From contig NZ_CP020867.1 in assembly GCF_002104335.1 (NCBI RefSeq), positions 744,001-808,000 on the forward strand: DNA of 64,000 nt, written 5' to 3'. This DNA comes from Campylobacter cuniculorum DSM 23162 = LMG 24588 (GTDB taxonomy: Bacteria; Campylobacterota; Campylobacteria; Campylobacterales; Campylobacteraceae). Under the pieces are notes generated by a model, which saw nothing but the letters and a program-made list of their open reading frames with translations, did not search any database and had not been told where the DNA came from. Position 1 is the stretch's first letter. Every line of letters begins with the position of its first letter. Made by a program: the position numbers and the translations under genes. This document shows, one piece after another, positions 10,945-32,263 of the stretch.

Positions 10945-11143
10945 TTTTGTTAAAAAGGGGTAAAAGTGAATAAAATATTATTTTTGATGATTTTTATATA
11001 TGAAGTAATGGTTATATTTAAAGATGAGTTAGAAAAGATTTTAAATGCCTTTATAGTGTTAAGTTTAATAAATTTTAAAATTAATTTATTGTATCATATC
11101 TGCTTTGTTATTTAGAAAATTTCGGATTTTAAGGAGAAAATTA

Positions 11144-15163: not shown

Positions 15164-15946
15164 ATGTTAAATGTAATCTATGCTTTATTCTTTAGAGAGT
15201 TAAAAACAAGATTTGGGGCAAATAAATATTTAGGCTATATTTGGGTTGTTGGTGAGCCTATGTCTGTGGTTTTGACTATTACGATTATTGTTACAATCAT
15301 TAGAGAATATCATCATCAAGTCATGCCCGATGGAATTTCCATTTTTATGTTTTTAATCTCTGGAATTGTGCCTTATTTTATGTTTAGAAGTATCGTAACG
15401 CAACTTATGCATGGCATAGGAGCAAATTTAGCCCTTTTTGCCTATAAACCTGTTAAACCCATACATGTTTTTATTGCTAGGACCTTGTTAGAATTTTGTA
15501 TCTATTTTACAATTTTTGTTGTTGTGCTTTTTATATCGGCTTGGTTTTTAAATTTAAATTCCATTCCCAGACATTTTATGGAGGTCATGTTTAGTATCTT
15601 TTTGCTTTTATGTTCAGGGTTTTCTTTGGGGCTTTGTTTTGCAATCATTTGGCACTTTGTGGAGCCTTTGAGGACTTTATTGAATTATTTTAGTATTATT
15701 TTTTATTGGAGTTCGGGAGTTATTTTTCCAACTTGGCTTATGCCAAAACCTTTGCTTGATATATTTTATTATAATCCTTTACTCCATATTATGGAACTCT
15801 TAAGATACAATTTTTTCGAACATTATCCCTTGCAAGATGATTATAATTATATTTACCCTATATTTTGTATAGCCGTTGTCCTTTTTATAGGGCTTTTTAT
15901 ATATTATTATAACAGACAAGCTTTAACGGCGGCTCGAAGAAAATGA
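15164..15946 (+). CDS. kpsM: Capsule export ABC transporter permease KpsM
   Basis: Inner-membrane permease that, with KpsT, moves lipid-linked capsule polymer across the inner membrane. The 260 residues have six hydrophobic segments with the ABC-2 layout. The start (ALFFRELKTRFGANKYLGYIW) and the late GVIFPTWLMPKPLLDIFYYNP match KpsM/Wzm proteins. The stop overlaps kpsT by four bases. Confidence 0.94.
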   Translation: MLNVIYALFFRELKTRFGANKYLGYIWVVGEPMSVVLTITIIVTIIREYHHQVMPDGISIFMFLISGIVPYFMFRSIVTQLMHGIGANLALFAYKPVKPIHVFIARTLLEFCIYFTIFVVVLFISAWFLNLNSIPRHFMEVMFSIFLLLCSGFSLGLCFAIIWHFVEPLRTLLNYFSIIFYWSSGVIFPTWLMPKPLLDIFYYNPLLHIMELLRYNFFEHYPLQDDYNYIYPIFCIAVVLFIGLFIYYYNRQALTAARRK

Positions 15947-16605
15947 TAAAGCTTGTGAATTTAACTAAATCTTATCCTTTATTTAATGGCAAAAGACATT
16001 ATGTTTTCAAAGATTTTACCTTTGAATTTCCTGAAAATTGTAGTATAGGACTTATGGGATATAATGGAGCGGGTAAATCTACGCTTATGAGACTTTTGAG
16101 TGGTTCAGAGCTTCCTGATAAAGGCAAGATTCTTACTAATAAAAAGCTTTCATGGCCTTTGGGTTTAAATGGAGCCTTTCAAGGCTCACTCACTGCAAGA
16201 GATAATGCTAAATTTGTTGCAAGGGTGTATGGTTATAAGGGTGAAGAATTAAGAGAAAAAGTGCAATTTGTCGAGGATTTTGCAGAGCTTGGAAAATTTT
16301 TTGATGAACCGATGAAGACCTATTCTTCGGGAATGAGTGCAAGAATCGCTTTTGGACTTAGCATGGCTTTTGAATTTGATTATTATCTGATTGATGAAGC
16401 TGGAGCGGTTGGAGACCCTAAATTTAGGGAAAAAAGCATAAAACTTTACAAAGAAAGACTTTCAAAATCAAAGGTCATTATGGTTTCTCACAATGTTGCT
16501 GAAATTAAGGAATGGTGTGATAAAATTATTTTTATGCAAGATGGCAAAGTGAGTGTTTATGATGATGTCGATGAAGGTATAGCTGTCTATCAAGGAAAAA
16601 AATGA
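15943..16605 (+). CDS. kpsT: Capsule export ABC transporter ATPase KpsT
   Basis: ATPase partner of KpsM. It has 220 residues. Walker A is GYNGAGKST (39-47), the ABC signature region is YSSGMSARIAF (127-137), and Walker B is YYLIDEAGAVGD (148-159). The truncated signature and short C-terminus, with no carbohydrate-binding extension, are typical of KpsT and not Wzt. Overlaps kpsM and kpsE by four bases each. Confidence 0.95.
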   Translation: MIKLVNLTKSYPLFNGKRHYVFKDFTFEFPENCSIGLMGYNGAGKSTLMRLLSGSELPDKGKILTNKKLSWPLGLNGAFQGSLTARDNAKFVARVYGYKGEELREKVQFVEDFAELGKFFDEPMKTYSSGMSARIAFGLSMAFEFDYYLIDEAGAVGDPKFREKSIKLYKERLSKSKVIMVSHNVAEIKEWCDKIIFMQDGKVSVYDDVDEGIAVYQGKK

Positions 16606-17738
16606 TTGTTAAAAAATATGCAAAAGAATATAAAAATGTATTAGAAAAGATTAAAGATTTAAGCCTATTTGATTCTTTTAAAATTGTTTGGTTTTTGATG
16701 ATTTTTGTGGCGATTTATTATTTTTTGATTGCCACAGATAGATATGTAAGCACTATGACTTTAAGTGTGCGTTCAACTAATGGAGAAACAGCAGATACAA
16801 ACGGGGTGCTTTCTTTATTGACTGATACTTCAAATACAAGCGAAGATTTAAAATATTTACAAGGTTATATTTATTCTTTAGATATGTTAAAAATTTTAGA
16901 TGAAAAAATAGGGCTTAGAAAGCTTTATCAAGAGCAGTTTATTGATTTATTTTTTAAAATTTGGGATTTTAGTTCTATGGAAAGTTTTTTAAAATATTAT
17001 CAAAATCGCGTTAAAATCTACACTGATGATAAAACAGGACTTTTGAATGTCGATGTGGAAGGTTTTACTCCAGAATCTGCTCATTTGATTGCTCAAAATA
17101 TTATGGAAGAGAGTGAAAAATTTATCAATGAAATTTCACATGCTGCAGCAAGAGAACAAATGGCTTTTGCTGAAAATGAAATTGTAAAATATAAAGAAAG
17201 ATATAAAAAAGCTCAAAATGATTTGATTGCGTTTCAAAATAAATATGGAGTTTTTGATCCCCTTAAACAAGCTGAAAATCGAGTCGGTTTAGTCGCACAA
17301 CTTGAAGGCAATTTGGCTCAAAAAGAAGCCACTCTTTTGACCTTACAAAGCTATATGAATGATTCAGCACCCGAAATTGTAACTTTAAAAGCAGAAATTG
17401 AAGCGATAAAAAGACAACTTCAAAGAGAAATAGCAAAAATTTCATCGAGCAATTCTTCGCAAAAACTTAACGATTTGGTGGCTCAATTTCAAGATTTAAG
17501 TATAGAAGCGAGTTTTGCACAAAGTGCCTATGAAGCAGCTTTGAAAGCTTATGAAACTGCCAGAATTGAAGCAGCAAGGAAGATTAAACAACTTGTGGTG
17601 ATTCAAAATCCTGATTTACCTCAAAGTGCAGAATACCCTAAAAGAATTTATAGTGTTATCACTGCTTTTATGATATTATCTTTAATTTTTGGTATTATTA
17701 AATTCATTAAAATGATTATAGAGGAGCATAAATACTGA
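16602..17738 (+). CDS. kpsE: Capsule export inner-membrane/periplasmic protein KpsE
   Basis: Polysaccharide co-polymerase-type protein linking KpsMT to the outer-membrane export channel. It has 378 residues with a membrane segment near residues 30-45, a long coiled coil (about 170-320), and a second membrane segment near the C-terminus. The IQNPDLPQSAEYPKRIY motif just before it is the proline-rich signature of the PCP-3 class. Shares one base with the kpsD start. Confidence 0.93.
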   Translation: MIVKKYAKEYKNVLEKIKDLSLFDSFKIVWFLMIFVAIYYFLIATDRYVSTMTLSVRSTNGETADTNGVLSLLTDTSNTSEDLKYLQGYIYSLDMLKILDEKIGLRKLYQEQFIDLFFKIWDFSSMESFLKYYQNRVKIYTDDKTGLLNVDVEGFTPESAHLIAQNIMEESEKFINEISHAAAREQMAFAENEIVKYKERYKKAQNDLIAFQNKYGVFDPLKQAENRVGLVAQLEGNLAQKEATLLTLQSYMNDSAPEIVTLKAEIEAIKRQLQREIAKISSSNSSQKLNDLVAQFQDLSIEASFAQSAYEAALKAYETARIEAARKIKQLVVIQNPDLPQSAEYPKRIYSVITAFMILSLIFGIIKFIKMIIEEHKY

Positions 17739-19405
17739 TGAAAAACATATTAATTTTATTATTAGGTTTTATTTTTTGTTTTGGAGCGGTTGATATTTCG
17801 CAAATTGTTTCACCTGAAAACAATGCTCCAAGTTATGAACAAAATATGAGCTCGTCATATCCAGCTCAAAATACAGAAAATTCAGAAAATAATGTAACTT
17901 ATATGAGAAATTCCAGCACAATCGCTGTTTTTGGTTCTCATCTTTTTAATGGAAATTTTAGAAATTTTACTCAAAAACTTTATAATCCTGATTATAAAAT
18001 TGCGGTTGGAGATCAAATCAGTCTTAAAATTTGGGGAGCCGTAGAATTCACTCAAGTTTTAGTTGTGGATTCTCAAGGCAATATTTTTATCCCAAAGGTT
18101 GGAGCCATTAATTTATTAGGCGTGAAAAATAGTGCTTTGGTTTCAGTGATTAAGGCTCAAGTTAATAAAATTTATAAAAACAATGTCTTTGTTTATGCGG
18201 ATATGAATGCTTATCAAAATGTCAGTGTTTTTGTAACAGGAAGCGTCAATGCTCCCGGACTTTATGAGGGTTTAAGCTCGGATTCTATCATTCAGTATTT
18301 AGACAAAGCAGGGGGAATTAATTTAGAATATGGAAGTTTTAGGGATATTAAAATTTTAAGAAATAATGCAGTGGTTAAAAAAATCGATTTGTATGATTTT
18401 TTACTCAAAGGACAAATGGAACTTTTTGCTTTTAGAAGCGGAGATGTGGTTTTAGTGGGCAATGTGCAAAAATACGCCTTTGTGAGCGGAGATGTGCAAA
18501 AGCCTTTTAGATTTGAATTGGGTGAAGATATAAAAACTTTAAGTGATTTGGCTGTGGTTTGTGGAGCAAAGCCCATAGTAACAAATGCCGTGGTGAGAAC
18601 TTACGCACCTAATCACAAGCTTGATGTTGTTGCCTATAATAAAATTGATTTTTCAAAAGCACTTTTAAGGACAGGCGATGAGGTTGAATTCAGACCCGAA
18701 TATGTTTCACAAAATATTAGCGTTATCGTAGATGGGGAGCATGATGGTTTAAAAACCTTAGTGGTAAAAAAAGGGACGACTTTAGAAGATGTTTCAAATC
18801 TTATCATGCCAAATGCAAGATCGGATATGAATGCCTTGCAAATTTATCGAAAAAGCGTCGCAAAAACTCAAAAAGAGCTTATTGCTGCACAGCTTAGAGA
18901 GCTTGAAACCTTAGCTTTAACAAGTTCAGCGGTTAATTCAGAACAAGCCGCCATTCGTGCAACTCAAGCAAAGACCATTTTAGAATTTATAGAAAGAGCC
19001 AAACAAGTTGAACCTAAAGGACAAATCGTTATTGATAACACAAAGGCTTATAAAAGCATTGTCTTAGAAGATGGAGATATTATCAATGTGCCGAGTAAAA
19101 ACAATCTTGTCATTGTGCAAGGCGAGGTTTCATTACCCGGTGCTTTTGTTTATATGAATAAGGAAAATTTGAAATATTATATTGATTTAGCAGGAGGATA
19201 CAGCGAAAGGGCTGACACTTCAAAAATTTTAGTCATACGCATTAATGGTAAGGCTGAAAAATATCGTGGAAGTATTGACATGAAGCCCGGAGATTCCATA
19301 CTTGTTTTACCAAAAGTTGATAGTCAAAACTTGCAAATTTTTGGTATGATTACGCAAATTCTCTATCAAATTGCAATCGCAACAAATGTTGTGCTTAATA
19401 TATAA
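17738..19405 (+). CDS. kpsD: Capsule export outer-membrane/periplasmic protein KpsD
   Basis: Outer-membrane polysaccharide export (OPX) component. It has 555 residues with a signal peptide (about 1-16), the export domain YKIAVGDQISLKIWGAVEF, and SLBB-like repeats such as VFVTGSVNAPGLYEG and VIVQGEVSLPGAFVYMN. A hydrophobic C-terminal tail (QILYQIAIATNVVL) is present. Positioned between kpsE and kpsF as in C. jejuni. Confidence 0.93.
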   Translation: MKNILILLLGFIFCFGAVDISQIVSPENNAPSYEQNMSSSYPAQNTENSENNVTYMRNSSTIAVFGSHLFNGNFRNFTQKLYNPDYKIAVGDQISLKIWGAVEFTQVLVVDSQGNIFIPKVGAINLLGVKNSALVSVIKAQVNKIYKNNVFVYADMNAYQNVSVFVTGSVNAPGLYEGLSSDSIIQYLDKAGGINLEYGSFRDIKILRNNAVVKKIDLYDFLLKGQMELFAFRSGDVVLVGNVQKYAFVSGDVQKPFRFELGEDIKTLSDLAVVCGAKPIVTNAVVRTYAPNHKLDVVAYNKIDFSKALLRTGDEVEFRPEYVSQNISVIVDGEHDGLKTLVVKKGTTLEDVSNLIMPNARSDMNALQIYRKSVAKTQKELIAAQLRELETLALTSSAVNSEQAAIRATQAKTILEFIERAKQVEPKGQIVIDNTKAYKSIVLEDGDIINVPSKNNLVIVQGEVSLPGAFVYMNKENLKYYIDLAGGYSERADTSKILVIRINGKAEKYRGSIDMKPGDSILVLPKVDSQNLQIFGMITQILYQIAIATNVVLNI

Positions 19406-19416
19406 GGAAGTGAAAA

Positions 19417-20367
19417 ATGTTTGATGGAGTTGAGATTGCTAAGAGAGTTTTTGAGATTGAATCTAAGGTTATAGCTGATTTAGCTAAGAATTTAAACGAG
19501 GATTTTAATAAAACTATAGAACTTATTTTGAGTATTAAGGGACGTTGCATATTAAGCGGTATGGGAAAATCAGGACATATTGCGACAAAAATCGCTGCAA
19601 CCTTAGCAAGCACGGGAACTCCAAGCTTTTTTATGCATCCAAGTGAAGCCTTGCATGGGGATTTGGGTATGCTTACTTCTAATGATATTTTAATCGCTAT
19701 TTCAAATTCAGGTGAAACTGAAGAGCTTTTAAGAATCATTCCAGCGATTAAAAGATGTAAAATTCCCCTTGTAGTGATGAGTGGAAACAATCAATCCACT
19801 TTAGCAAAACAAGCCGATGCCTTTTTGAATATTTTTGTTGAAAAAGAAGCTTGCCCCTTGCAACTTGCTCCGATGTCCTCTACAACAGCGACTTTAGCAA
19901 TGGGAGATGCCATTGCAGCTGCCTTGATGAAAATAAGGAAATTTAAACCTAAAGATTTTGCTTTGTTTCATCCGGGGGGAAGTTTGGGACGCAAACTTTT
20001 AACTAAGGTTGAAGATTTGATGGTTTCATCTCATTTGCCCATCGTCAATCCTCAAACCGAATTCAATGATTTAATCAGCATAATGACAAGTGGAAAATTA
20101 GGACTTTGTATAGTTTTAGAACAGGATAAACTTGTGGGTATTATCACAGACGGGGACTTAAGAAGAGCTTTAAAATCAAATAATAAACCAAGATTTGATT
20201 TTAAAGCCAAAGAAATTATGAGCACAAATCCTAAGATTGTCGATGCAAATTCTATGTTGAGTGAAGCAGAAGAGATTATGCTTAAACATAATATCAAAGA
20301 AATTGTCGTGCAAAAAGAAGACAAGGTCGTTGGTGTCATACAGCTTTATGCGATAGGAAAAATATAG
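19417..20367 (+). CDS. kpsF: Arabinose-5-phosphate isomerase
   Basis: Interconverts ribulose-5-P and arabinose-5-P, feeding Kdo synthesis; the KpsF copy supplies Kdo for the capsule lipid linker. It has 316 residues: an SIS sugar-isomerase domain (SGMGKSGHIATKIAATLAS, SNSGETEELLR) then two CBS domains (about 200-316). The stop shares a base with the GTG start of the next gene. Confidence 0.93.
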   Translation: MFDGVEIAKRVFEIESKVIADLAKNLNEDFNKTIELILSIKGRCILSGMGKSGHIATKIAATLASTGTPSFFMHPSEALHGDLGMLTSNDILIAISNSGETEELLRIIPAIKRCKIPLVVMSGNNQSTLAKQADAFLNIFVEKEACPLQLAPMSSTTATLAMGDAIAAALMKIRKFKPKDFALFHPGGSLGRKLLTKVEDLMVSSHLPIVNPQTEFNDLISIMTSGKLGLCIVLEQDKLVGIITDGDLRRALKSNNKPRFDFKAKEIMSTNPKIVDANSMLSEAEEIMLKHNIKEIVVQKEDKVVGVIQLYAIGKI

Positions 20368-21347
20368 TGAAATATAGTATTGCAATTCCTTTAGACCTTA
20401 AATTACGTCCATTCGATATACTTAGGAAAGTTAAAGATATTATTAAAAGAGCGAGTGATGATATTGAAATTGTTTTTGGACATAATGATAGAAATTGTTG
20501 GTTTGATAAATATTTAAAAAGGCTTATTAAAAATAAAGACAATGTCAAGCTTGCATCTGGAAATTTTTATACAAAACTTGTGAATATGAGTTTATTAAGA
20601 AATAAAGCTGTAGAGCTTTGTTCTTGTGAATTTATTTATCTTATGGATGTAGATTGTTTGTTTGATAAAGAATTAAGCGATTCTTGTATAGAAGAGCTTA
20701 AGAGTGAAAAAAAAACTTTTATTATTTTGCCTTGTTTGTATCTTACTCCTAAGGGCTCAAGAGCAATTTTTCATCATAGCAGAGAAGAGATGTTTGAAAA
20801 ATTTATTTCTTTTAGAAAAGATTTATTTTCAAGCATTGCTTCGCCGAGCGGAGGGACGATATTTTTGAAAAAAAAGGATTATTTAAAACTCGGTGGTTTT
20901 GATGAAGATTTTGTAGGTAGAGGTGGAGAGGACTTCGAATTTATGATAAAACTTGCACTTTTTCATAAAGCCATAGAGCCTACGAAAGACTTAATGCTGA
21001 ATAAATTTTATAAAGCCCCCCTTTTAAGTGAGGGTTTTAGAAAGTATTTAAGTTTTATTTGTTTGCCTTATTTTTTTGAAAAAAAGGTTGCGTTTCATAT
21101 ATATCATAGTAGAAATAGACTTTTAGGTTATTACAGACAATATGATAAAAATTCAAATTTGCTTCAAGAAAAAATTGCATTTAAAGATGACAATTTAAAA
21201 GCCTATGGAGCGTCTTTAATGGCATTTTATGAGGAACTTTGTCATAAATATGAGATTCCTTTAGATAAATATGCCATTCTTTTTGATTCTAATAAACCTA
21301 AGATATTGAGTTTATCTTGGTTTATACTTTTTTTGAAAAGACTTTAA
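20367..21347 (+). CDS. Capsule glycosyltransferase, GT2 family
   Basis: A GTG start overlaps the kpsF stop by one base. The 326-residue protein has a GT-A fold with a metal-binding LMDVDCLFD and the late GGFDEDFVGRGGEDFEFM motif typical of capsule galactosyltransferase-like GT2 enzymes (Glyco_tranf_2_2 type). The sugar and linkage cannot be read from sequence. It lies where C. jejuni has Cj1442c, directly after kpsF. The stop and the next ATG overlap as TAATG, so the two GT genes are translationally coupled and probably act as a pair. Confidence 0.8.
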   Translation: MKYSIAIPLDLKLRPFDILRKVKDIIKRASDDIEIVFGHNDRNCWFDKYLKRLIKNKDNVKLASGNFYTKLVNMSLLRNKAVELCSCEFIYLMDVDCLFDKELSDSCIEELKSEKKTFIILPCLYLTPKGSRAIFHHSREEMFEKFISFRKDLFSSIASPSGGTIFLKKKDYLKLGGFDEDFVGRGGEDFEFMIKLALFHKAIEPTKDLMLNKFYKAPLLSEGFRKYLSFICLPYFFEKKVAFHIYHSRNRLLGYYRQYDKNSNLLQEKIAFKDDNLKAYGASLMAFYEELCHKYEIPLDKYAILFDSNKPKILSLSWFILFLKRL

Positions 21348-24007
21348 TGTTAAGACTTTCAAGAGAAAATAAAAAACAAATTAAAATTATCCTTGATGGT
21401 ATCTTTAAAATTTATCTTAAAATCTTTTTAAACCGCTTTAAACCCAAAAAATATCAAGCCTATCAAAAATATGTTGTCATTTCAGCTGTGTATAATGTAG
21501 AAAAATATCTCAAAGATTATTTTAATTCTATAATCCATCAAAGACTTGATTTTAAAAACAATATTCTTTTAATCTTAGTCGATGATGGTTCAACGGATAA
21601 AAGTGCAACAATTATCAAAGCCTATCAAAAAAAATATCCTAAGAATATCATTTATCTGTATAAAGAAAATGGAGGACAAGCAAGTGCTAGAAATTTAGGT
21701 TTAAAATATTTAGAACAAAATTTAAAAGAAAGTTTTAAATTCCTTTCAAAATCAAATAATAAAAATTTAGATTCAATTGACTCTTCAAAGTTAAATACAA
21801 CTTCACTCAATTCTTTAAATTCAACATTACCTTTTATACCTACTTGGGTGAGTTTTACTGACCCTGATGATTTCTTGGATAGAGATTGTTTTTATAAAGT
21901 CGATAAGTTTTTAAATAAAAATAAGAATGAAAATTTGGTTATGATTGCTTGCAATATCATATTTTATTTTGAAAAATTTAAAATATATAAAGATAATCAT
22001 CCTTTAAATTTTAAATTTAAAAAAACCAGCATACTTACTAATCAAAATTTAAATGATTTTATACAGCTTCATTGTGCATCAGCCTTTTTTTTTGTGCAAA
22101 AAATTCTCAAACAGAATATAAAATTCGATGAGGATTTAAAACCAAATTTTGAAGATGCAAAATTTGTTAATGAATTTTTACTTGAAAACTTAAAATCACA
22201 AAGTGTTTTTCTTAAAACAGCAAAATATTTTTATAGAAAAAGAAAGGATAAAAGCTCAACTTTAGACAATAAAAAAGAATCAGATTTAAAGCAAGTTTTG
22301 AAATTAGGTTATCTTCTTCTTCTTCTTCTTGCAGAAAAAAAATGCTTTAATATTCCAAATTTCATTCAAAATACTATAATCTATGATTTATATTGGGTTA
22401 TTAAAGACACAATCAATAATCCAAATAAATTTAATTTTCATACCATTGAAGAAAGGAAAAAATTTTTTAAACTTTTTGATAAAATTTTTTCTTTAATTGA
22501 TGCTGAAAATATTTTAAATTTTAATGTGGCAGGATTTTCTTTCTTTTATAAAGTAGGAATTCTTCATTGTTTTAAAAATGAATATCCTTCTTTTCATATC
22601 GCCTATATAGAAGATTTAGATGATAAAAACGAACAGATTTTAATAAGATATTTTACTCCTAATGATAAAGATACAGAAAGTATCAAATTTGATGGTGTGG
22701 AAATTTATGCGGATTATAAGAAGATTGTTAAACATTGTTTTTTAAATAGAGTGTTTTGCTATGAAAAAAGACTTTGGGTAAAGATGCCTCAAAACGCACA
22801 GAAGCTCGAAATTTTTATAAAAAAAGAAAAGAGTAAAATTTATTTTGAAGAAAAAGAGCTTGAGGGTTTAACTCAAATTGACCAAAGAATGCAAGAATCT
22901 AAGGTGCAAAGAAGTAAAAATGATGATTTGTGGCTTTTTGTAGATATGGCTTTTAAGGCTGATGATAATGCCGAACATCTTTATCGATATATTGCTAAAA
23001 ATCATCCAGAGCAAAATATAATTTTTGCATTAAGGAAAAATTCAAAAGATTATGAAAGACTTCAAAAAGAAGGATTTAAGCTTATAGACCCTAAAGGTTT
23101 GAAATTTAAATATTGTCTTCATAAAGCGGATAAAGTCATTTCTTCTCATATCGATAAATATATTTTTAATGCTTTTGGTGGGGATACTTTAAAGACTAAA
23201 GATTTTATTTTTCTTCAACATGGGGTTACTAAAGATAATCTTTCAGCTTGGTTTAATAAACGCAAGATTGATTGTTTTATCACTGCAACAAAAGCAGAAT
23301 ATAAAAGCATAGCTAAGGATTACAATGAATACAAATTTAGCTCTAAAGAGGTTGTTTTAACAGGATTTGCAAGACATGATAATCTTTTAAAAAACAATAC
23401 AACTCCTTTAAAACAAATTCTTATTATGCCAACTTGGAGGCAATATTTAGTCGGTGAAATACAAAGTTTTGGAAAAAGAAAAAAGAGAGACAATTTTGTC
23501 CAAAGCAAATATTATAGACATTGGAAAGCTTTTTTAGACAGCAAAATTTTAAGAGATTTAATGCAAAAATATCATTATCAAATCATTTTTAATCCTCATC
23601 CTCAAATTCAACCTTATTTTAAAGATTTTGAGCTCGATTCTTATATTAGATTAAGTGAAGGTTCTTGTTTGCAGAAGCTTTTTATAGAAAGTGCTTTGTT
23701 GATAACTGATTATTCTAGTGTGGCTTTTGAAATGGCATATTTAAAAAAACCCGTGCTGTATTATCAATTTGACAAAGAAGAATTTTTTGCAAATCATATT
23801 TACCAACAAGGTTATTTTTCCTATGAAAAAGATGGTTTTGGAGCAGTGTCTTATACAGAAGAGGAGCTGCTTAAAGAGCTTGAAAATTTACTTGCAAAAG
23901 ATTGTAAGAGTGATGAGCCTTATAAAAGCAGGATAGAAAATACCTTTGAATTTAGAGATGGTAAATGTTGTGAGAGAATTTATAAAAAAATCAAAGATTT
24001 ATCATAA
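21347..24007 (+). CDS. Fused GT2 glycosyltransferase / CDP-glycerol glycerophosphotransferase-type capsule polymerase
   Basis: The start is taken at 21347 (TAATG overlap); the frame is open ten codons further upstream from a TTG. The 886-residue protein has an N-terminal GT2 domain (VISAVYNVEKYL, VDDGSTDKS at ~78-86, TDPDDFLD at ~171-178) split by a Ser/Asn/Leu-rich insert (~131-163). After a middle region comes a C-terminal Glyphos_transf domain (~535-885) with FLQHGVTKDN, FNPHPQIQPYF and TDYSSVAFEMAYLKKPVLYY, as in TagF/TagB teichoic-acid enzymes. It probably alternates a sugar and an alditol phosphate. No tagD-like CDP-glycerol synthase is visible in the window. Confidence 0.85.
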   Translation: MLRLSRENKKQIKIILDGIFKIYLKIFLNRFKPKKYQAYQKYVVISAVYNVEKYLKDYFNSIIHQRLDFKNNILLILVDDGSTDKSATIIKAYQKKYPKNIIYLYKENGGQASARNLGLKYLEQNLKESFKFLSKSNNKNLDSIDSSKLNTTSLNSLNSTLPFIPTWVSFTDPDDFLDRDCFYKVDKFLNKNKNENLVMIACNIIFYFEKFKIYKDNHPLNFKFKKTSILTNQNLNDFIQLHCASAFFFVQKILKQNIKFDEDLKPNFEDAKFVNEFLLENLKSQSVFLKTAKYFYRKRKDKSSTLDNKKESDLKQVLKLGYLLLLLLAEKKCFNIPNFIQNTIIYDLYWVIKDTINNPNKFNFHTIEERKKFFKLFDKIFSLIDAENILNFNVAGFSFFYKVGILHCFKNEYPSFHIAYIEDLDDKNEQILIRYFTPNDKDTESIKFDGVEIYADYKKIVKHCFLNRVFCYEKRLWVKMPQNAQKLEIFIKKEKSKIYFEEKELEGLTQIDQRMQESKVQRSKNDDLWLFVDMAFKADDNAEHLYRYIAKNHPEQNIIFALRKNSKDYERLQKEGFKLIDPKGLKFKYCLHKADKVISSHIDKYIFNAFGGDTLKTKDFIFLQHGVTKDNLSAWFNKRKIDCFITATKAEYKSIAKDYNEYKFSSKEVVLTGFARHDNLLKNNTTPLKQILIMPTWRQYLVGEIQSFGKRKKRDNFVQSKYYRHWKAFLDSKILRDLMQKYHYQIIFNPHPQIQPYFKDFELDSYIRLSEGSCLQKLFIESALLITDYSSVAFEMAYLKKPVLYYQFDKEEFFANHIYQQGYFSYEKDGFGAVSYTEEELLKELENLLAKDCKSDEPYKSRIENTFEFRDGKCCERIYKKIKDLS
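22312..22329 (+). repeat. (TCT)6 trinucleotide repeat
   Basis: Six tandem TCT units inside the GT2/TagF fusion encode a run of leucines (GYLLLLLLAEKK). Length changes would add or remove leucines without breaking frame, so this is not an on/off switch. Confidence 0.6.
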
Positions 24008-24119: not shown

Positions 24120-25697
24120 TTGTTTTTTAATTTTCTTAAAAAATCCAAACAAAATACCGCAGTTTCAAAAGATTTTTCAAAACAAAACACTCAAAATTCA
24201 AATGATTTTTTAGCAAACAAAGAGGAAAATACTTCAAATAAAGAATTTTTAAATGATGAAAACAAGGAAGAAAATTTAATCAAAAAAGATGAAAATTCAG
24301 ACTCTATAAAAGTCTTAAATTCGGCTTATTCTTTCAAAAAAATCGCTTTAGGATTAGTATTTGCTATGATTTTAGGCATTATTTGTGCTTTTTTGGCAAG
24401 TTTTTATCTCGGAGCGTCTTTTAAAGTTTCTGCTTTGATAGGCATCATCGCTTTGCTTGTAACACTTTGGACAAATAAGGCTTTGCCTTTAGGCGTTGTA
24501 TCGCTTTTGCCTATCATTTTGTTTCCAAGTTTTGGAATTTTAGACACGAAAACTGCAACAGCAAATTATGGCAATCCTATTATTTTTCTATTTTTAGGAG
24601 GTTTTATGCTTGCCACAGCAACGGAAAAAATCGGTTTGCATAAAATCATCGCTAAAAAATTTTTATCCTTTTTTCCTAAAACCCCTAAAGGAGTGATTTC
24701 TGCTTTAGGATTTGCTTCAGCAGCCTTAGGAACAGCTTTGTCAAATTCTACGGTTGCAATCTTACTCTTACCCATTGCACTTTCTATCACAAAAGATTAT
24801 TTTTTAAAACTTAGATTTTTACTTGCTGTAGCTTTTGGAGCAAGTATTAGCGGTATCACCACGCCCATAGGCTCTCCGCCAAATCTCATATTTTTAGGAT
24901 TTTTAGAAAATCTTGGTTTTGAAGGCATCAGTTTTACAACTTGGATTTTTATGATGTTGCCGCTTACTTTGCTTATGCTTTATGCGATGATTAAAATCCT
25001 TTCATTCAATACAAAAAGTCATTCTATGGAAGTGAATCTTTTTGAAAATGAGGAATTTACTTTTGCACACAAACGTTTGACATTTTTTCTCCTTGTGCTT
25101 TTGGTGATACTTTTTATCAATTCTCCTATTAAACCTTTTTATAGTGGTTTGGGTTTAAATGAAAATGTCATACTTTTAGCCTTTGGTTTGCTGATGTTTG
25201 TGCCTAAAATTGGCTTTTTGGATTGGGACGATTCTAAGTCTATACCCTATGAATTGATATTTTTATTTGGAGCAGGATTTTGTATTGCAAAAGCCTTTGC
25301 AGGAACTGAATTGAGCAAAGCATTTGAGGGATTTTTTTCCCAATTTTCCTCTTTACCTTTTATTGTCTTTTTATTTTTAGCTTGTGTGAGTGCGATTATA
25401 GCGACAGGATTTTTAAGCACCACAGCCCTTATTGCTATTTTACTCCCTATCGTTTATACAGCCACGCAGTCCTTTTTAGAAGGTAAAGAACCCACAATCA
25501 CTATGCTTGCGATTACAATTTGTGCGAGTTTTTCATTTATGATACCCATCAGCACACCTCCTAACGCCATTGTTTTTGCTAAAGGTAATATCAAGGCGTG
25601 GGATATGATACGTTTTGGTTTTATGCTAAGCGTTGTAGGGATAGTAGCTGTAACGCTTTTTTCATATGTGTATTGGCGTTGGTTTTTAGGAGTTTAA
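24120..25697 (+). CDS. DASS-family (SLC13) anion/dicarboxylate transporter
   Basis: Starts with TTG at 24120, supported by AAGGAG six bases upstream. The 525 residues comprise a ~70-residue hydrophilic, Asn/Lys/Glu-rich cytoplasmic extension, then about 11-12 membrane segments. Family motifs are LGTALSNSTVAILLLPIAL, GITTPIGSPPNLIFLGFL and ISTPPNAIVFAKGNIKAWD. It probably takes up a di- or tricarboxylate or sulfate with sodium. The long N-terminal extension is unusual for the family. It lies alone between the two capsule-linked modules and converges with the methyltransferase gene. Confidence 0.88.
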   Translation: MFFNFLKKSKQNTAVSKDFSKQNTQNSNDFLANKEENTSNKEFLNDENKEENLIKKDENSDSIKVLNSAYSFKKIALGLVFAMILGIICAFLASFYLGASFKVSALIGIIALLVTLWTNKALPLGVVSLLPIILFPSFGILDTKTATANYGNPIIFLFLGGFMLATATEKIGLHKIIAKKFLSFFPKTPKGVISALGFASAALGTALSNSTVAILLLPIALSITKDYFLKLRFLLAVAFGASISGITTPIGSPPNLIFLGFLENLGFEGISFTTWIFMMLPLTLLMLYAMIKILSFNTKSHSMEVNLFENEEFTFAHKRLTFFLLVLLVILFINSPIKPFYSGLGLNENVILLAFGLLMFVPKIGFLDWDDSKSIPYELIFLFGAGFCIAKAFAGTELSKAFEGFFSQFSSLPFIVFLFLACVSAIIATGFLSTTALIAILLPIVYTATQSFLEGKEPTITMLAITICASFSFMIPISTPPNAIVFAKGNIKAWDMIRFGFMLSVVGIVAVTLFSYVYWRWFLGV

Positions 25698-25848: not shown

Positions 25849-26975
25849 TTACTCCAAAAAATTTATTTTTGCAGTAATATTCATCAAACCCGCTTTAATT
25901 TCTTCATTATATATGCTAGGGCTTAAAATTATAAAAGAATTGTTTTGATTTTTTAGAATTTGGGGATTTTTTACAAATAAAGGAGTTCCATAAAGTCTTT
26001 TATCCCATTTATTTGGATTATTATCTAAAATTCCTTTAATTTTAGAGAGTTCTAAACCATTATAAATCAAAACTTGAGAGAAAAGATGAGCCCCAAAGAG
26101 ATAAAAAGAAGCATTTGTATTTTTTAAAATTTCATTAAGTTTTTTAACTCGGTTTTTGTAATATTCTTTATAATCTAAAAATAACTTTTTGTTCTTTTCA
26201 TATTCATTTTTTAGTTGAATGTAAGGGGCGTTTTTATCTTTTATTACTTTGTAGAATATACTATGTTCTTTAAAGTATTTTTTATCTAATATCTTAAATC
26301 CACTTTTAGAAAGGATAAATTCAAGCACATTTTCATTTAAAAAAATTGTATGTTCAAAACACAAACAATTTGCACTTTTTAGTTCAAGACTCTTTTGCAA
26401 ATTTGGGAGAGAAAAAATCATAATCCCCCCCCCCCCGTCAGTACTTCAAAGCAATCTTGTAGAAAATCCAAAGGTTTATAGATGTGTTCAAAGGTATGAG
26501 AATGCACAATGCAATCAAAATTTTGTTCAATATTTTCTTTTTTGAAAAATGAGTCAATATAATTTATATTATTGTGTTTTTTTGTAGAATTTGGCTCTAT
26601 GATTGTATATTTTAATTCAGGATTAATTTCAAGGCAGTTTTGAGAAAGTTTTCCATGTCCCCCGCCGATTTCTAAGATATTCTTAGGGTGATTTTGCATA
26701 ATAAAATTTGCAAATTCTTTGTGATGTTCTTCCCATAATGCCCCGATAGCACCGGCATCATGTCCATTCTTATAGAGCAAATCAAGCGGTATAAGTTTTT
26801 TTAATTGCAATACTCCTTCTTTGGATATAGCAATTTCTTCTTCGCAAATCAAATCTTTATCACTTTCTTTTTCAGTGCAACCACAAAATAAAGGAAATTT
26901 TTCCTTACTTATGATTTCAAGCTCACTTTGATTGATAACGCATTGTTTTCTTTCAAGATAATTAATCTTTTGCAT
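25849..26975 (-). CDS. Phase-variable C-methyltransferase (OFF as sequenced)
   Basis: Two abutting ORFs form one gene split by a 12-base G tract. The upstream part (26975-26418) has the SAM motif ILEIGGGHGKLSQN and HSHTFEHIYKPLDFL, and ends EVLTGGGGL-stop. The downstream part (26421-25849) resumes IMIFSLPNLQKSLEL and ends with the Rossmann-like C-terminal domain of sugar C-methyltransferases (FYLFGAHLFSQVLIYNG, GILDNNPNKWDKRLYGTPL). With G10 or G13 the frames join into ~375 residues of the TylCIII-type layout. The N-terminus has only a remnant FCGC instead of the usual zinc-binding cysteine set. Last gene of the seven-gene operon. Confidence 0.85.
26425..26436 (-). repeat. Poly-G tract (G12 on the minus strand), OFF phase
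   Basis: Twelve consecutive C on the plus strand fall exactly where the two halves of the methyltransferase meet. Frame arithmetic shows that 10 or 13 G restore the full protein. Confidence 0.9.
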
Positions 26976-27699
26976 TCTTTTTAAACTCCAAATATTTTTT
27001 TAAATCCTGCGGCGTGCCGATGCCATGCATTTTTTCTTCTTCTATATTATAAATTCCAAATTTTAACCCTTTCTTAATGGCATAATTATAAACAGGAGCG
27101 GTATAAAATTCATTATTAATTCTGTCATTTTCTAAAATCATTTGTAAGGCATTATCTACAAAAAATTTACCTTTAGAAAAAAGATAAATTCCAACGGTGG
27201 CAAATTTTGAGATGACTTGTTTTTCTCTCACCTCTACAACAAGATTATGTTCAATTTTGACAAAAGACCATTTATTGTCTTTTTTACTATCAATAAAGCA
27301 AAGTAAAGACCCATCAAGCTTTCTTATTTTACAATCTTCAATAAAATCCTTTAGATTTAAATCAACAATCTGGTCAGAATTTGCAATAATCAAAGGTGTG
27401 TCGTTATTGATAAATTCCCTTGCAAAAAGCACTGTGCAAGCTGTGCCTTCGGTAAGTTTATCAATACCTATAAATAACACATTGAAATCCTTTTTTATTT
27501 GTTCGCAAAGAATTTTTTCAGATTCTAAATGTTCTTTTCTTAAAATAATAATAAATCTCGCATCATCACAGGCGAGATTTTCTAAAACCCTAACAATCAT
27601 AGCTTTTCCTAAGACATCAATAAAAGGCTTAGCTTTTTTAAATCCTTCTTTGGCGAAGCGACTTCCAAGTCCTGCGGCAGGGATAACAATATTTATCAT
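26962..27699 (-). CDS. Sugar-type nucleotidyltransferase 1
   Basis: A 245-residue single-domain enzyme of the RmlA/GlmU/LicC nucleotidyltransferase fold. The signature reads IPAAGLGSRFAKEGFKKAKPF, with the GxGSR loop and following lysine, and the metal aspartate lies in IANSDQIVDLN. It should activate a sugar- or alditol-phosphate (or another phospho-compound) with an NTP; the substrate is unknown. It overlaps the cupin gene by four bases and the methyltransferase gene by 14. Confidence 0.8.
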   Translation of the reverse strand: MINIVIPAAGLGSRFAKEGFKKAKPFIDVLGKAMIVRVLENLACDDARFIIILRKEHLESEKILCEQIKKDFNVLFIGIDKLTEGTACTVLFAREFINNDTPLIIANSDQIVDLNLKDFIEDCKIRKLDGSLLCFIDSKKDNKWSFVKIEHNLVVEVREKQVISKFATVGIYLFSKGKFFVDNALQMILENDRINNEFYTAPVYNYAIKKGLKFGIYNIEEEKMHGIGTPQDLKKYLEFKKNAKD

Positions 27700-28025
27700 T
27701 CTTTTTCTCCTAAGTATTTATCATTTTTGGCACAAGGAAGTTTGACAACAACATTTATAGTATTTTCTAAAGCTTTAAAATCTGTGGATTCATTAGGTTC
27801 TATTACAATAATATCACCCTTTGAGTAAATTTTATCATTCATTAAGACCTTGCCTTCTATGATAGCCGTAATTTCAGTAGCTATTCTATGATGATGTCTT
27901 TGTTCATAGTCTCCTTTTTTATATCTTTTTACACCCACTTCAACGGCTTCTGTGTTAAAGACACTTGGATTAAAATCTCCTATAAACCAACCTCTAATCA
28001 TATCATCGAGTTTGAAAATTTTCAT
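27696..28025 (-). CDS. Cupin-domain protein
   Basis: A 109-residue single-domain cupin. Metal-binding pattern: YKKGDYEQRHHHRIATEI (the HxH region with later glutamate) and KGDIIVIEPNEST for the second motif. Small cupins in glycan loci can be epimerases or isomerases or bind the small-molecule substrate; which applies here is unknown. One base separates it from the SnoaL-like gene upstream. Confidence 0.7.
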   Translation of the reverse strand: MKIFKLDDMIRGWFIGDFNPSVFNTEAVEVGVKRYKKGDYEQRHHHRIATEITAIIEGKVLMNDKIYSKGDIIVIEPNESTDFKALENTINVVVKLPCAKNDKYLGEKE

Positions 28026-28026
28026 C

Positions 28027-28356
28027 TTAAAACTCGTAAAGATAAGCTCTAAGTTTTACAATTTTTTTATTTTTCCATTCAATAATATCCACTCCTTTTA
28101 AATTTGTTTCATCGAGCTTTAGAATGAATTCTATGAAACTTGTATCATCATCTTGATAAATTTTATTTGCTTCAAAGCTTAGTTTTGAATGTTTTTCAAA
28201 AAGCTCATTTATAGCATTAAGACATATTTGTTTTCCTTCTAGATGTTTAACAGCAGGATCTTCTAGAATAAAATTTTCATCAAGTAAAGAAGAAATTGTT
28301 TTCAAATCTTTGTCATTAAAGGCTTTGATATAATTTTGAGTGAGTTTTTTAAGCAT
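28027..28356 (-). CDS. SnoaL/NTF2-like protein
   Basis: A 109-residue protein with the SnoaL opening YIKAFNDKDLKTISSLLDENF, then LEDPAVKHLEGKQ and a later FIEFILKLDETNLKGVDIIEW strand region, the NTF2-like cone fold. Such folds occur as isomerases, dehydratases or binding proteins, so the reaction cannot be assigned. It overlaps the next nucleotidyltransferase gene by eight bases and belongs to the same operon. Confidence 0.7.
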   Translation of the reverse strand: MLKKLTQNYIKAFNDKDLKTISSLLDENFILEDPAVKHLEGKQICLNAINELFEKHSKLSFEANKIYQDDDTSFIEFILKLDETNLKGVDIIEWKNKKIVKLRAYLYEF

Positions 28357-29074
28357 TTTTTATCCTTTCAAATTCTTTAATTTTTTCTGGGCTATAAAAA
28401 GTATGATACAAATTTTTGTCGATTCTTATATTTAAGATTTTTTTATTTTCTAAAATGAGTTCATTTAAAATGGGAGCAACAAAGTATTTTCCTTGATAAT
28501 TCACATCTTTTCTAATCATATTTTTAGCCCCATTTATAAAGAATTTTCCATGTTTAAAATAGTAAAATCCTGCAATGGCATCTTTGCTAACAGGTTTTTT
28601 TTCAAAGGCTTCTAAAACTATATTTGAAGAGTTACATTTTACATAAGCCCAACGCGGATGTATATTTTCAAAACTTAGAATTCCAGCATCATAAGCAGAA
28701 AATTTTTCAATCATTTCATTTAAATCAAATTCAAAAAATTGGTCTATATTGACAATAAGCAGAGGCTCATCGTTGTCAATAAAATCAATTGCCAACATAC
28801 AAGAACAAGCCATTCCACCTGTTTCTTTTTCTGTGAAGATATTTTTAGCTTTTTGATTTGTAAGAGTATGGATAGCATCATCAATATGAAAACGAAATGC
28901 TTCATCTTTCTTAAGTATAAAAATCAATTGTTTATTTTTAATATTTTCAAAATTTTTGATAAAAATCTCTAACATTGTTTTTCCGCAAATTTCAACAAAA
29001 GGCTTGGGAAAACCTTGTTTTGATTCATCAAAAAAATAACTCTTACCAGCTATTGGAACGAGGATGTTTAACAT
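28349..29074 (-). CDS. Sugar-type nucleotidyltransferase 2, variant signature
   Basis: A 241-residue paralogue-like relative of the 26962-27699 product: both have a PxAG opening, a D-x-P-L-I/L-I-x-N-x-D-Q metal site (here LLIVNIDQFFEFD), and a W-[SA]-[FY]-V-K strand. The canonical GxGxR loop is absent, reading VPIAGKSYFFDESKQGFPKPF. It may bind a different nucleotide or substrate, or be a non-catalytic or altered enzyme. Adjacent to the HAD gene with no intervening base. Confidence 0.75.
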   Translation of the reverse strand: MLNILVPIAGKSYFFDESKQGFPKPFVEICGKTMLEIFIKNFENIKNKQLIFILKKDEAFRFHIDDAIHTLTNQKAKNIFTEKETGGMACSCMLAIDFIDNDEPLLIVNIDQFFEFDLNEMIEKFSAYDAGILSFENIHPRWAYVKCNSSNIVLEAFEKKPVSKDAIAGFYYFKHGKFFINGAKNMIRKDVNYQGKYFVAPILNELILENKKILNIRIDKNLYHTFYSPEKIKEFERIKNA

Positions 29075-29704
29075 TTAATCCCTTTCAAATTTTTCTATGT
29101 GATTTTTGATATTTTCATAATTAACCTCTTCAACTTCTTTAACAATCATAACATTTGCTCCGCTTGCTTTTGCTGCTTTAATGCCATTTTCATTGTCTTC
29201 AATTATCATACATTGCTTAGGTTCTAAGTTAAATTTTAAAATTGCTTTAGAATACATTTGTGGATGGGGTTTAGGCTTTTCTACATCTTCATTTGAAAGG
29301 CAAAAATCTAAATACGACTCCAGAGCTGCTTTTTGCATCATTACATCAATAGTATGTCGTATGGAATTTGAACAAACAGCTAATTTATACCCTTCATTTT
29401 TGAGTTTTGAAAGGGCAAATTCGTGATGAAATCTAGGTTTGCAATAATTATAAACCATTTCCATAGTGTATTGTTGTTTAAGTTCATTAATGAATTCGTG
29501 CAAATTGTTACTTAATTTTTTATCAATTGAAAGCATCTTAAGTTTTTCTTTAGTTGGAAGTCCATCGAAAGTTGTTAAGTGTTCATACCTTGAAATTTCT
29601 GTGCCAAAAAGCCTTAAAGCTTTATTTAATGCTTCATAATGCCATTCTTTTGCTTCTATTAAAACTCCATCCATATCAAAAATAATTGCTTTAATCTTAG
29701 ACAT
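29075..29704 (-). CDS. HAD-superfamily hydrolase (beta-phosphoglucomutase-like)
   Basis: A 209-residue enzyme with motif I IIFDMDGVLIEAKEWHYEAL, motif II VCSNSIRHT, and motif III/IV KPKPHPQMY plus MIIEDNENGIKAAKASGA, the subfamily I arrangement with a small helical cap. It is probably a phosphatase or phosphomutase for a sugar- or alditol-phosphate, producing or trimming the substrate of the neighbouring nucleotidyltransferases. Overlaps the GDPD-like gene by eight bases. Confidence 0.82.
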   Translation of the reverse strand: MSKIKAIIFDMDGVLIEAKEWHYEALNKALRLFGTEISRYEHLTTFDGLPTKEKLKMLSIDKKLSNNLHEFINELKQQYTMEMVYNYCKPRFHHEFALSKLKNEGYKLAVCSNSIRHTIDVMMQKAALESYLDFCLSNEDVEKPKPHPQMYSKAILKFNLEPKQCMIIEDNENGIKAAKASGANVMIVKEVEEVNYENIKNHIEKFERD

Positions 29705-30335
29705 TGAAAAAATCCTTTGCTTTTTGAGGATAATCTGTGCAAAGCATTAAATTTTCTCTAGGATTTAATTCTAAGTCAATTTTTTTATATTCTTCCCATT
29801 CTTTTATGAAATCTCTACAATGAAGTTCAGGGGAAACAATGCACACTTTCTTTCCTTGTTTTAAATGATTTTTAATAATTTCTTTATCAATCCAATGAGT
29901 ATAGAATTCATCAAGCCATATTCCATCTGCTTTTTCATATAAGCAAGGCTTAGGTTCTAATTCACTTTGTCTTACAAAAACTTTAAAATTTAAATCAATA
30001 TAAGCCAAAGTATCCGGGATAGACATATCGAAAACGAAATAGTTTGTAATTTTATATTCTTCTAAAACTTGTTTGAGGGCAAACTGAAGCCCGTCAGCCT
30101 TAATATTTAAAGCAAGTGGGCATTCTAAAGGGTATTTTTTATAAAGAGCAAGGAGATTTTTTAAATTTAAAGCATTTTTATCAGCTATATCATGCGATAC
30201 AACTAAATCCCCCCCCCCATAATCTCTTATATCTGTTTCTATTCCATAATTATTTTCAAAACTCTTTTTAAAGGCTTTTAGAGTATTTTTTTCAATATTT
30301 TCTTGCCAAAAACCTCGATGAGCAAGCAAAAGCAT
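29697..30335 (-). CDS. Glycerophosphodiester phosphodiesterase-like protein, phase-variable
   Basis: A 212-residue TIM-barrel GDPD-like enzyme. Catalytic pair H6-R7 (AHRGFW), the N-T of the usual ENT motif at 17-18, metal-binding E33 and D35 (GIETDIRD), and H48 in VVSHD are present. A G10 tract encodes G40-G42 and starts D43, exactly where the family's D-G loop lies; the gene is ON as sequenced. No signal peptide, so it is cytoplasmic. It may hydrolyse or transfer a glycerophosphodiester for the capsule module. First gene of the minus-strand operon. Confidence 0.82.
   Translation of the reverse strand: MLLLAHRGFWQENIEKNTLKAFKKSFENNYGIETDIRDYGGGDLVVSHDIADKNALNLKNLLALYKKYPLECPLALNIKADGLQFALKQVLEEYKITNYFVFDMSIPDTLAYIDLNFKVFVRQSELEPKPCLYEKADGIWLDEFYTHWIDKEIIKNHLKQGKKVCIVSPELHCRDFIKEWEEYKKIDLELNPRENLMLCTDYPQKAKDFFNV
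30209..30218 (-). repeat. Poly-G tract (G10 on the minus strand), ON phase
   Basis: Ten C on the plus strand inside the GDPD-like gene. Codons TAT-GGG-GGG-GGG-GAT continue in frame, so G10 is the ON length. Slippage to 9 or 11 would truncate the protein after about 45 residues. Confidence 0.9.
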
Positions 30336-30559: not shown

Positions 30560-32263
30560 TTATTCTTTGAAACTCCAAGTGTCTTTGATGAATTGCATTA
30601 GTTTGTTGTATCTTTTATCAATAGCTTTTTTATCCCATTTGTCTTTAGCAAATTGTGAAATTTCTCTTTGTTGCAAGAGAGAGTTTTTATAACTTTCGCG
30701 TTTAACTTTAAAGGGTTTGTTTCCAAGTGAGCTATTGTGTCGTTTAGAAATCAGTAAAAGATTGCCTATGCAATCCACATACATTTCTCTAAAATGATCA
30801 TTATATGTTTCATACCCACTTTTTGCTTTTTCGCCTTTTTCAGTTCGCGGAGCAATGTGTTCAAGTTCTGGATTTTCGATAGAATCTTTTGTTGCTTTAT
30901 AGCCTCTTGTTTTAGCATCATCTTTTCTTAAATAATTTTCATAACGCATCAAAATATAAAGAGCAATCTTTGAATTTTCTCTGTAAATATACCTAAGACT
31001 ATTTTCATCCTCATCATCAGCCCCAAATAGTTTTTTATCGCTCCAATATTGATTTTTACAAATTTCTTTTAAAGAATTTGTAAGATTTTCTACATCTTTT
31101 TTTTCTTTAAATTTTTTTAAAACACCATTGAGTCTTGAAGATAAATCCGCTCTAGTTCGTGCAAGTTTATCCCTAAAAGCAATGATTTCTAAAGCTTTGA
31201 AAATTTCTTCTAAATTTTTTTTATCTTCTCTAAAAAATTCATAAGCTTTGATGATAAAAGGATACACTTCCCACACATTTAAATCAAGTAAATAATCCTT
31301 ATAATCACTCTTTAGTTGCCCAAAATTTTTCATATCAATAAAGGCTTGTTTAAGCTCTTCCATATAGTCTTCAATCCAAATAACCTTATCCTTAGGCTCT
31401 TTTGCTTTTTTTAGTTCTTTTTTATAATTTTTCTCATCATCGTTTTCGCGATAATTAAAATCAAATTTTGCAATATTAAAATAATTCAAAATTCTATCTT
31501 CATCAAGAAAATTTATATCCTTTAGTAAACGATAAATATCTTCAAAAATTTTTGTGATTTTTCGTAATTTTTCCTCACAGGATTCTTTTTCACAATAAGT
31601 ATAAATTTGATAGCTAAGATAAGACTTGAGTTTCTCTAAATTTGTGAGTTCTTTACCACGATTGTTTTGAAGTTCAAACATTAGGATAGAATCTTTTTTA
31701 TTATTAAAAGCTATGCTTAGAATTTGAGCTTTTTTCAAGGATTTAAAAAGTTTTAAGATTTCTTCTGTGCTTTTGCTTTCTAATTTTTTATTAAAAAATT
31801 CTTTCGCCTTTTTAATGCGGTCTTGAGAGAGTGTTTGAGCAGGATAGCTGTTGCTATTTTTGATGATATAATTTTCGAAATATCCATCATCATATTCTAC
31901 GGTTTTAAGTTTTGCTTTTGGGTTAAGATAAATTTCTTTGAACTTACTAAGAATTTCTTGCTTTTTTGTCTGATTTTCATTAAATTCTTTCTTTTCTAAG
32001 ATATTGTATAAAGCACGGATAAAAATTATAATGGTTGTGATTCTTTGCTGTCCATCGATAATTTCAGCAGTATTATTTTCAGACTCTTCAAGTAAGATAT
32101 TGCCAAAAAAATAGCAATTTTCACTTCTTGTTGCCTCTTCTAAATCTTCTAAAAATATATTCCATTGTTTTTCTTCCCAAGAATATGCCCTTTGATAAAT
32201 AGGAATTTTGTATTGTTTTTCGCGTTGAAAAAATTCCTCAATGGTCTGCTTTTTTGGAGTCAT
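30560..32263 (-). CDS. DUF262/DUF1524 protein (single-chain GmrSD-like restriction nuclease)
   Basis: A 567-residue protein. The N-terminal DUF262 domain shows YKIPIYQRAYSWEEKQW and the NTP-site motif EIIDGQQRITT. The C-terminal DUF1524 HNH-type nuclease shows LEHIAPR and CIGNLLLISKRHNSSLGNKPF. This layout is that of type IV modification-dependent restriction enzymes (GmrSD, BrxU, SspE relatives), which cut foreign, usually base- or backbone-modified, DNA. It is intact, solitary, has its own AAGGAAA ribosome site, and lies in an accessory junction. A 14-base T run (minus strand) lies 48 bases before its start. Confidence 0.85.
   Translation of the reverse strand: MTPKKQTIEEFFQREKQYKIPIYQRAYSWEEKQWNIFLEDLEEATRSENCYFFGNILLEESENNTAEIIDGQQRITTIIIFIRALYNILEKKEFNENQTKKQEILSKFKEIYLNPKAKLKTVEYDDGYFENYIIKNSNSYPAQTLSQDRIKKAKEFFNKKLESKSTEEILKLFKSLKKAQILSIAFNNKKDSILMFELQNNRGKELTNLEKLKSYLSYQIYTYCEKESCEEKLRKITKIFEDIYRLLKDINFLDEDRILNYFNIAKFDFNYRENDDEKNYKKELKKAKEPKDKVIWIEDYMEELKQAFIDMKNFGQLKSDYKDYLLDLNVWEVYPFIIKAYEFFREDKKNLEEIFKALEIIAFRDKLARTRADLSSRLNGVLKKFKEKKDVENLTNSLKEICKNQYWSDKKLFGADDEDENSLRYIYRENSKIALYILMRYENYLRKDDAKTRGYKATKDSIENPELEHIAPRTEKGEKAKSGYETYNDHFREMYVDCIGNLLLISKRHNSSLGNKPFKVKRESYKNSLLQQREISQFAKDKWDKKAIDKRYNKLMQFIKDTWSFKE

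Follow-up and report, generated by a model that had tools for sequence, protein, structure and literature searches.

The window analysed here, a stretch of 64,000 nucleotides from the Campylobacter cuniculorum DSM 23162 = LMG 24588 genome (contig NZ_CP020867.1, positions 744,001 to 808,000), carries on its minus strand at 25849-30335 a seven-gene operon that, on balance, we believe encodes an undescribed pathway making a nucleotide-activated unit for surface glycans. In order of transcription the genes specify a glycerophosphodiester phosphodiesterase (GDPD)-fold protein, a HAD hydrolase, a nucleotidyltransferase-fold protein (NT-A), a SnoaL-like protein, a small cupin, a second nucleotidyltransferase (NT-B) and a putative methyltransferase. 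An earlier note made from the sequence alone had proposed this minus-strand operon, and the open reading frame (ORF) list and Pfam domain calls bear it out: each gene overlaps or abuts its neighbour (GDPD/HAD, 8-nt overlap; HAD/NT-A, 0; NT-A/SnoaL, 8-nt overlap; cupin/NT-B, 4-nt overlap; NT-B/methyltransferase, 14-nt overlap), with a 1-nt gap between the SnoaL and cupin genes. GDPD, HAD, NT-A, cupin and NT-B behave as one inherited core unit, to which the SnoaL protein and methyltransferase are accessories. More tentatively, the operon may represent an unrecognised class of activated glycan unit, having a GDPD-initiated route, a paired catalytic and pseudocatalytic nucleotidyltransferase, delivery by a protein of the WavE family or of a family we name GQPR (motifs SGALR/GQPR...HxW...RxD), horizontal spread across at least three bacterial phyla, partial presence in cyanophages and phase gating at the GDPD.

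Conservation and distribution of the module

A search of other genomes for the same gene set, which the earlier note had suggested as a check, shows that it recurs in Campylobacterota and beyond. The sample comprised 397 Campylobacterota genomes, with gene order read in 25 loci (L and G labels denote the loci and genomes compared). When relatives were sought with NT-A many genomes matched, with NT-B nearby, and the order GDPD-HAD-NT-A-(SnoaL)-cupin-NT-B is kept in most of the 25 loci. HAD, NT-A and cupin are present in all 25 and GDPD in 24, the exception being a contig fragment; SnoaL is found in 20 and the methyltransferase in only 7, so that C-methylation, which the note had made part of the product, does not belong to the core. 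The cupin occurs, always as a single copy, in 24 of the 397 genomes, all of which encode NT-B. Twenty-three of these have a GDPD at E<1e-60 and the 24th a longer, divergent GDPD that passes Pfam; likewise, a distinct NT-A is encoded in 23, and the remaining genome has a single nucleotidyltransferase of intermediate type. It is from these co-occurrence counts that we conclude the module is inherited as a unit. The module is patchily distributed, the pattern expected when surface-glycan genes move horizontally, and in several genomes the core is no more than about 20 kb from kpsC/kpsS.

Among Alpha- and Gammaproteobacteria, homologues of HAD and NT-B with 45-59% identity are found on plasmids of Pseudomonas aeruginosa PA83, P. 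alcaligenes, Azospirillum, Rhizobium, Sinorhizobium, Tropicibacter, Ruegeria, Scandinavium and Acetobacter, and the module is also present in Selenomonas ruminantium, other Selenomonadaceae and a Moraxellaceae metagenome-assembled genome; a contig scan with one query sequence gave five loci. In several lineages the enzymes are physically joined. Azospirillum, Rhizobium, Sinorhizobium and Tropicibacter have an NT-A::NT-B fusion protein; they lack the matching cupin, and a third, degenerate nucleotidyltransferase-like protein comes after the fusion (Tropicibacter also has the SnoaL protein). Cyanophages join HAD to NT-B, and L037 joins NT-B to the methyltransferase. The Synechococcus phage HAD::nucleotidyltransferase fusions are 457-461 aa long, some with a short GDPD-like gene nearby. 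As fusions usually join proteins of one route, we infer that the module enzymes are tied into a single route. Public PGAP annotation names the genes generically ('phosphodiesterase', 'HAD family phosphatase', 'glycosyltransferase family 2', 'cupin', 'hypothetical protein'), and a widespread sugar-surface pathway may be hidden behind such labels.

Some of these copies have neighbourhoods of their own interest. The Pseudomonas plasmids L060 and L061 carry the full module on megaplasmids together with an ABC exporter, a GMC oxidoreductase and a WavE protein; one of the two, the PA83 megaplasmid, is conjugative and comes from a human blood isolate. In cyanophages L073, L074 and L077 the HAD::nucleotidyltransferase fusion sits amid GQPR-family and other glycosyltransferase-like genes, possibly a phage-borne glycan pathway. 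The R. tumorigenes copy has erythritol-like catabolic genes next to it; the other inspected copies do not, and this was read as coincidence. The Scandinavium HAD and NT-B genes gave no DNA match in E. coli genomes, so no typed E. coli antigen is available to supply a structure.

The two nucleotidyltransferases

The two nucleotidyltransferases (NTP_transferase matches at E=8e-13 and 1e-12) differ sharply in their motifs. NT-B (26962-27699, 245 aa; this and all operon features below are on the minus strand) has intact GxGSR and KP motifs, and the PF00483 set of GxG[ST]R, KP and DQ is kept in all 39 NT-B proteins compared. NT-A (28349-29074, 241 aa) lacks the GxG[ST]R loop, as does every one of the 34 NT-A proteins, of which 24 retain KP and 30 DQ. 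In the tree NT-A forms one clade (support 100/99) across Campylobacterota, Pseudomonadota and Bacillota, which indicates that loss of the loop is old and has been retained. The central and C-terminal half of NT-A is conserved, with the motifs HPR(W/Y), EKxPIS, FYYF and LNE.

Given the loop loss, the NT-A::NT-B fusion and the existence of forms with a single nucleotidyltransferase, the simplest reading is that NT-A is an altered, perhaps non-catalytic, partner of NT-B. The alternative, that NT-A is a second active enzyme whose changed nucleotide-binding loop serves to activate or transfer a different compound, so that two activated compounds are made, would be consistent with its retention as a separate clade in three phyla, its conserved half and the DQ motif kept in most copies. 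We consider this unlikely, though the best placed of the alternatives weighed here, as the loop is absent from all 34 proteins and the KP lysine motif from 10, NT-A is fused to NT-B, and one genome and the cyanophages manage with a single nucleotidyltransferase. The earlier note had offered both possibilities: its altered second copy is favoured by these data, and the absence of GxG[ST]R from every NT-A makes its activation of two related compounds less likely.

The best solved match to both nucleotidyltransferase profiles, nearly full length, is the Vibrio cholerae 'nucleoside-diphosphate-sugar pyrophosphorylase' 4evw. The weaker matches to NT-B include HddC structures. The NT-B profile included the NT-B::methyltransferase fusion, and its weak methyltransferase matches were discarded as artefacts.

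The GDPD-fold protein

The first gene (29697-30335, 212 aa) falls below the gathering cut-off of PF03009 (E=0.011; 16.2 bits against 23.6), and only 2 of 12 homologues match this family at all, while the divergent L102 copy passes with 58.7 bits. The predicted structure nevertheless supports assignment to the GDPD fold: the AlphaFold2 model (pLDDT 91.6) matches solved glycerophosphodiester phosphodiesterases (Foldseek E=5e-10; Z 20.1 over 201 residues), and the top rows are almost all GDPDs. Residues H6, R7, E33, D35, H48 and K79 are invariant among the homologues. In classical GDPDs the Glu of the EIK motif is a metal ligand; here it is replaced by Asn77. The operon protein shares with the PF03009 enzymes both the predicted TIM-barrel fold and the catalytic HR...E.D...H set, but it is shorter, scores below the Pfam cut-off, has one metal-ligand Glu changed to Asn and sits in a biosynthetic operon.

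Poly-G tracts and phase variation

Three G/C runs of at least 7 occur in the window, compared with 0.19 expected, and two of them lie within the operon. A G10 tract (30209-30218) in the GDPD gene is in frame in this assembly, leaving the reading frame intact, and a G12 tract (26425-26436) in the methyltransferase gene is out of frame, splitting it into two ORFs; intact homologues of the latter exist. This supports the earlier suggestion that phase variation acts on the first and the last gene independently, and the pattern recurs in related genomes. Poly-G lies in the coding region of 13 of the 24 Campylobacterota GDPD copies, and 7 of these 13 are frameshifted; no tract-free copy is out of frame. 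Among the methyltransferase genes 4 of 7 carry such tracts, and about 120 copies of the other five genes, core and SnoaL, have none. Comparison of GDPD with those other genes gives a Fisher p of 2e-12 if the copies are independent, which they are not fully. The GDPD tract follows directly on the ETDxRD motif in the window, L036, L037, L039, L040 and L044, and probably L101, precedes this motif by about 11 nt in L045, L046, L048, L098 and L100, and is near the HRG motif in L047; in L043 an extra tract lies upstream of the gene.

We conclude that selection has placed switches repeatedly in the GDPD gene, at differing positions. From the position of the tracts the GDPD would be the gate of the pathway, and the methyltransferase a separate switch on a tailoring step. 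The GDPD switch lets one predict in which strains the unit can be turned off, which bears on capsule variation and phage receptors. The third long run in the window is a G9 tract at 11373-11381, near the start of a sulfatase-family (PF00884) membrane-type gene (11105-13105), by family of the lipoteichoic acid synthase or phosphoethanolamine transferase type.

The remaining operon proteins

The HAD protein (29075-29704, 209 aa; HAD_2, E=5e-38) is a class IA hydrolase resembling beta-phosphoglucomutase and, among others, hexitol and mannitol phosphatases. Its DxD nucleophile, Ser, Lys and Glu-Asp motifs are kept in 29 of 29 homologues (D8, D10, S114, K145, E169 and D170, in beta-phosphoglucomutase numbering). 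The cupin (27696-28025, 109 aa) has a weak Pfam match (E=0.0025) and a predicted cupin fold, with which a search returns generic small cupins (the closest include KdgF and TM1459) and no functional hint. The SnoaL/NTF2-fold protein (28027-28356, 109 aa) matches SnoaL_2 at 7e-11; a SnoaL-like capsule-locus gene of Campylobacter has been listed with a methyltransferase, a radical-SAM protein and a glycosyltransferase (PMC8743553), a set different from the present operon.

The seventh gene (25849-26975; ORFs 26418-26975 and 25849-26421) is a putative S-adenosylmethionine (SAM)-dependent methyltransferase of the sugar C-methyltransferase type. Across its two halves Methyltransf_23 is matched above the cut-off and PF08484 just short of it (22.2 bits against 23.5); the latter cut-off is one that the intact 377-aa homologue at L038:7283-8416 passes with 29.6 bits.

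Likely delivery of the unit

A GQPR protein, a WavE-family protein (PF07507) or both adjoin most loci. Profile comparison of the two families by hhalign (34% probability, E=4e-4; control pairs E>=0.07) is suggestive of a relationship. At its C-terminus the Campylobacter GQPR protein has a module in common with the N-terminal 118 residues of the O-methyl phosphoramidate (MeOPN) transferase family NF058596; this combination is seen at L040:10282-11631, L041:12247-14190, L045 and L046, often with a poly-G run of its own. A fusion of a family 2 glycosyltransferase with a TagF-type glycerophosphotransferase (21317-24007, 896 aa) lies 1.8 kb from the operon and offers another candidate, but 6 of the 18 module genomes lack TagF (PF04464), which the other 12 have. 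The neighbouring genes suggest that the likely transferase is a GQPR- or WavE-family protein rather than TagF.

Proposed pathway and alternatives

We infer the chemical steps of the pathway as follows. The GDPD would release or process a phosphodiester, yielding a phosphomonoester, and the HAD protein would move or remove a phosphate, enabling activation, and hand its product to NT-B, as the cyanophage HAD::NT-B fusions suggest. Isomerisation or epimerisation of the compound would fall to the cupin, alone or together with the SnoaL protein; NT-B would attach the nucleotide with NT-A as its non-catalytic or altered partner, the methyltransferase would provide optional tailoring, and a GQPR/WavE-family protein would transfer the unit. 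Slippage in the GDPD tract would then switch the whole branch on or off, and slippage in the methyltransferase tract would vary the methyl group only. Reductase, dehydrogenase, aminotransferase and kinase genes are all absent from the module core; the carbon skeleton is therefore probably supplied by an existing phosphorylated metabolite or phosphodiester. Because of the natural fusions and the clean pairing of a catalytic with a degenerate enzyme, purified proteins allow a direct test of the pathway.

The earlier note had described a coherent biosynthetic operon matching none of the Campylobacter pathways it named, and this view holds, the MeOPN and heptose gene sets being absent from the operon ORFs. 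The MeOPN pathway (Cj1415-Cj1418 type) has glutamine kinase, amidotransferase and kinase genes beside its cytidylyltransferase, and no MeOPN-type domain is present in the eight operon ORFs. The GDP-heptose/HddC route likewise has a HAD phosphatase step ahead of a PF00483 nucleotidyltransferase, but the operon lacks the sedoheptulose isomerase (SIS) and kinase, its HAD protein is of a different class, and it adds the GDPD, cupin and NT-A. CDP-6-D-glucitol synthesis in C. jejuni HS:5, which uses a PF01128 (IspD-type) cytidylyltransferase and a PF01370 reductase (PMC10918830), also makes an activated unit by means of a capsule-locus nucleotidyltransferase, but without GDPD, HAD, cupin or a second nucleotidyltransferase; NT-B matches PF01128 only below the cut-off (E=7e-4), and PF01370 was not found among the operon genes. 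Word matching in the openly licensed literature found no described pathway with this gene set, which is weak evidence of absence.

Several observations weigh against the proposed pathway. The module enzymes have no characterised close homologue, and 4evw, the nearest solved relative of both nucleotidyltransferases, itself has no known function. NT-B appears to lack the usual second metal-binding Asp, having MHGxGTP in place of WxDxGTP, and cupins and SnoaL proteins can be non-enzymatic. NT-B is on a separate contig in two genomes, and some rhizobial copies have no adjoining glycan genes. In the window genome the GQPR genes are far from the operon, and WavE was not found there in a search whose controls gave no match either. 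The poly-G statistic, too, is weakened by phylogenetic non-independence.

A non-sugar product, a small phospho-group similar to MeOPN carried by a CDP-linked donor, would fit the module common to GQPR proteins and NF058596, the lack of sugar-skeleton-building enzymes in the core and the phosphodiester chemistry to which the GDPD points. This analogy seems improbable to us, if only slightly more so than a second active nucleotidyltransferase: the common part covers only about 118 of 596 positions, the cyanophage and Moraxellaceae GQPR proteins are too short to contain it, and none of the known MeOPN enzymes is in the operon. More doubtful still is a scheme in which the cupin and NT-B alone make the product while GDPD and HAD recycle or proofread activated intermediates. 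The Glu to Asn change in the GDPD suggests altered chemistry, and one genome has a divergent GDPD, but a mere proofreader would not explain why this gene is nearly universal in module loci and the preferred site of the switch, and the HAD protein is fused to NT-B in cyanophages. The product favoured in the earlier note, namely a C-methylated alditol or small sugar that is activated by a nucleotide and built into a polymer by the TagF-like enzyme of the adjacent capsule cluster, is the least probable and was rejected as the principal explanation, for although the TagF fusion is close by, PF04464 is present in two thirds of module genomes and the HAD protein resembles hexitol and mannitol phosphatases among others, there is no reductase, neither nucleotidyltransferase is a convincing IspD-type enzyme of the kind used for CDP-6-glucitol (PMC10918830), TagF is not universal and the methyltransferase is confined to a minority of loci.

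Genomic surroundings and related modules

Upstream on the plus strand, kpsM, T, E, D and F occupy 15164-20367 and are followed by a glycosyltransferase gene and the TagF fusion; a citrate/sulfate-type transporter gene (24120-25697) separates the latter from the operon. The capsule export genes of this genome are split, with kpsMTEDF in the window and kpsC/kpsS about 0.7 Mb away at G000:C1:1478868-1480945. On the other side the operon is immediately preceded by a GmrSD-type restriction gene (30560-32263), beyond which lie a DsbC-like gene (assigned by eye), selB and selA.

An apparent sister system is present at L106, L107, L108, L110 and L111, with two tandem nucleotidyltransferase domains per protein, a GDPD-like protein, a HAD-type protein and a class II aldolase. 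Its HAD is weak or within a HAD::kinase fusion, and L111 adds a fusion of HAD to a PRK-type kinase and the same kind of methyltransferase. Compared with the operon it adds the aldolase (and, in L111, the kinase domain) and has no matching cupin; no description of it was found in the openly licensed literature searched. This sister system suggests that the design of a GDPD with a double nucleotidyltransferase is used for more than one compound.

A different module, found at L052 (G000:C1:334000-353500), L036, L039, L041, L043, L053 and L054, combines an EcbF/BcbF-type HAD phosphatase with an APH-like protein, the two being fused in L052, and includes a third nucleotidyltransferase paralogue in which SSR replaces the GxGSR loop.

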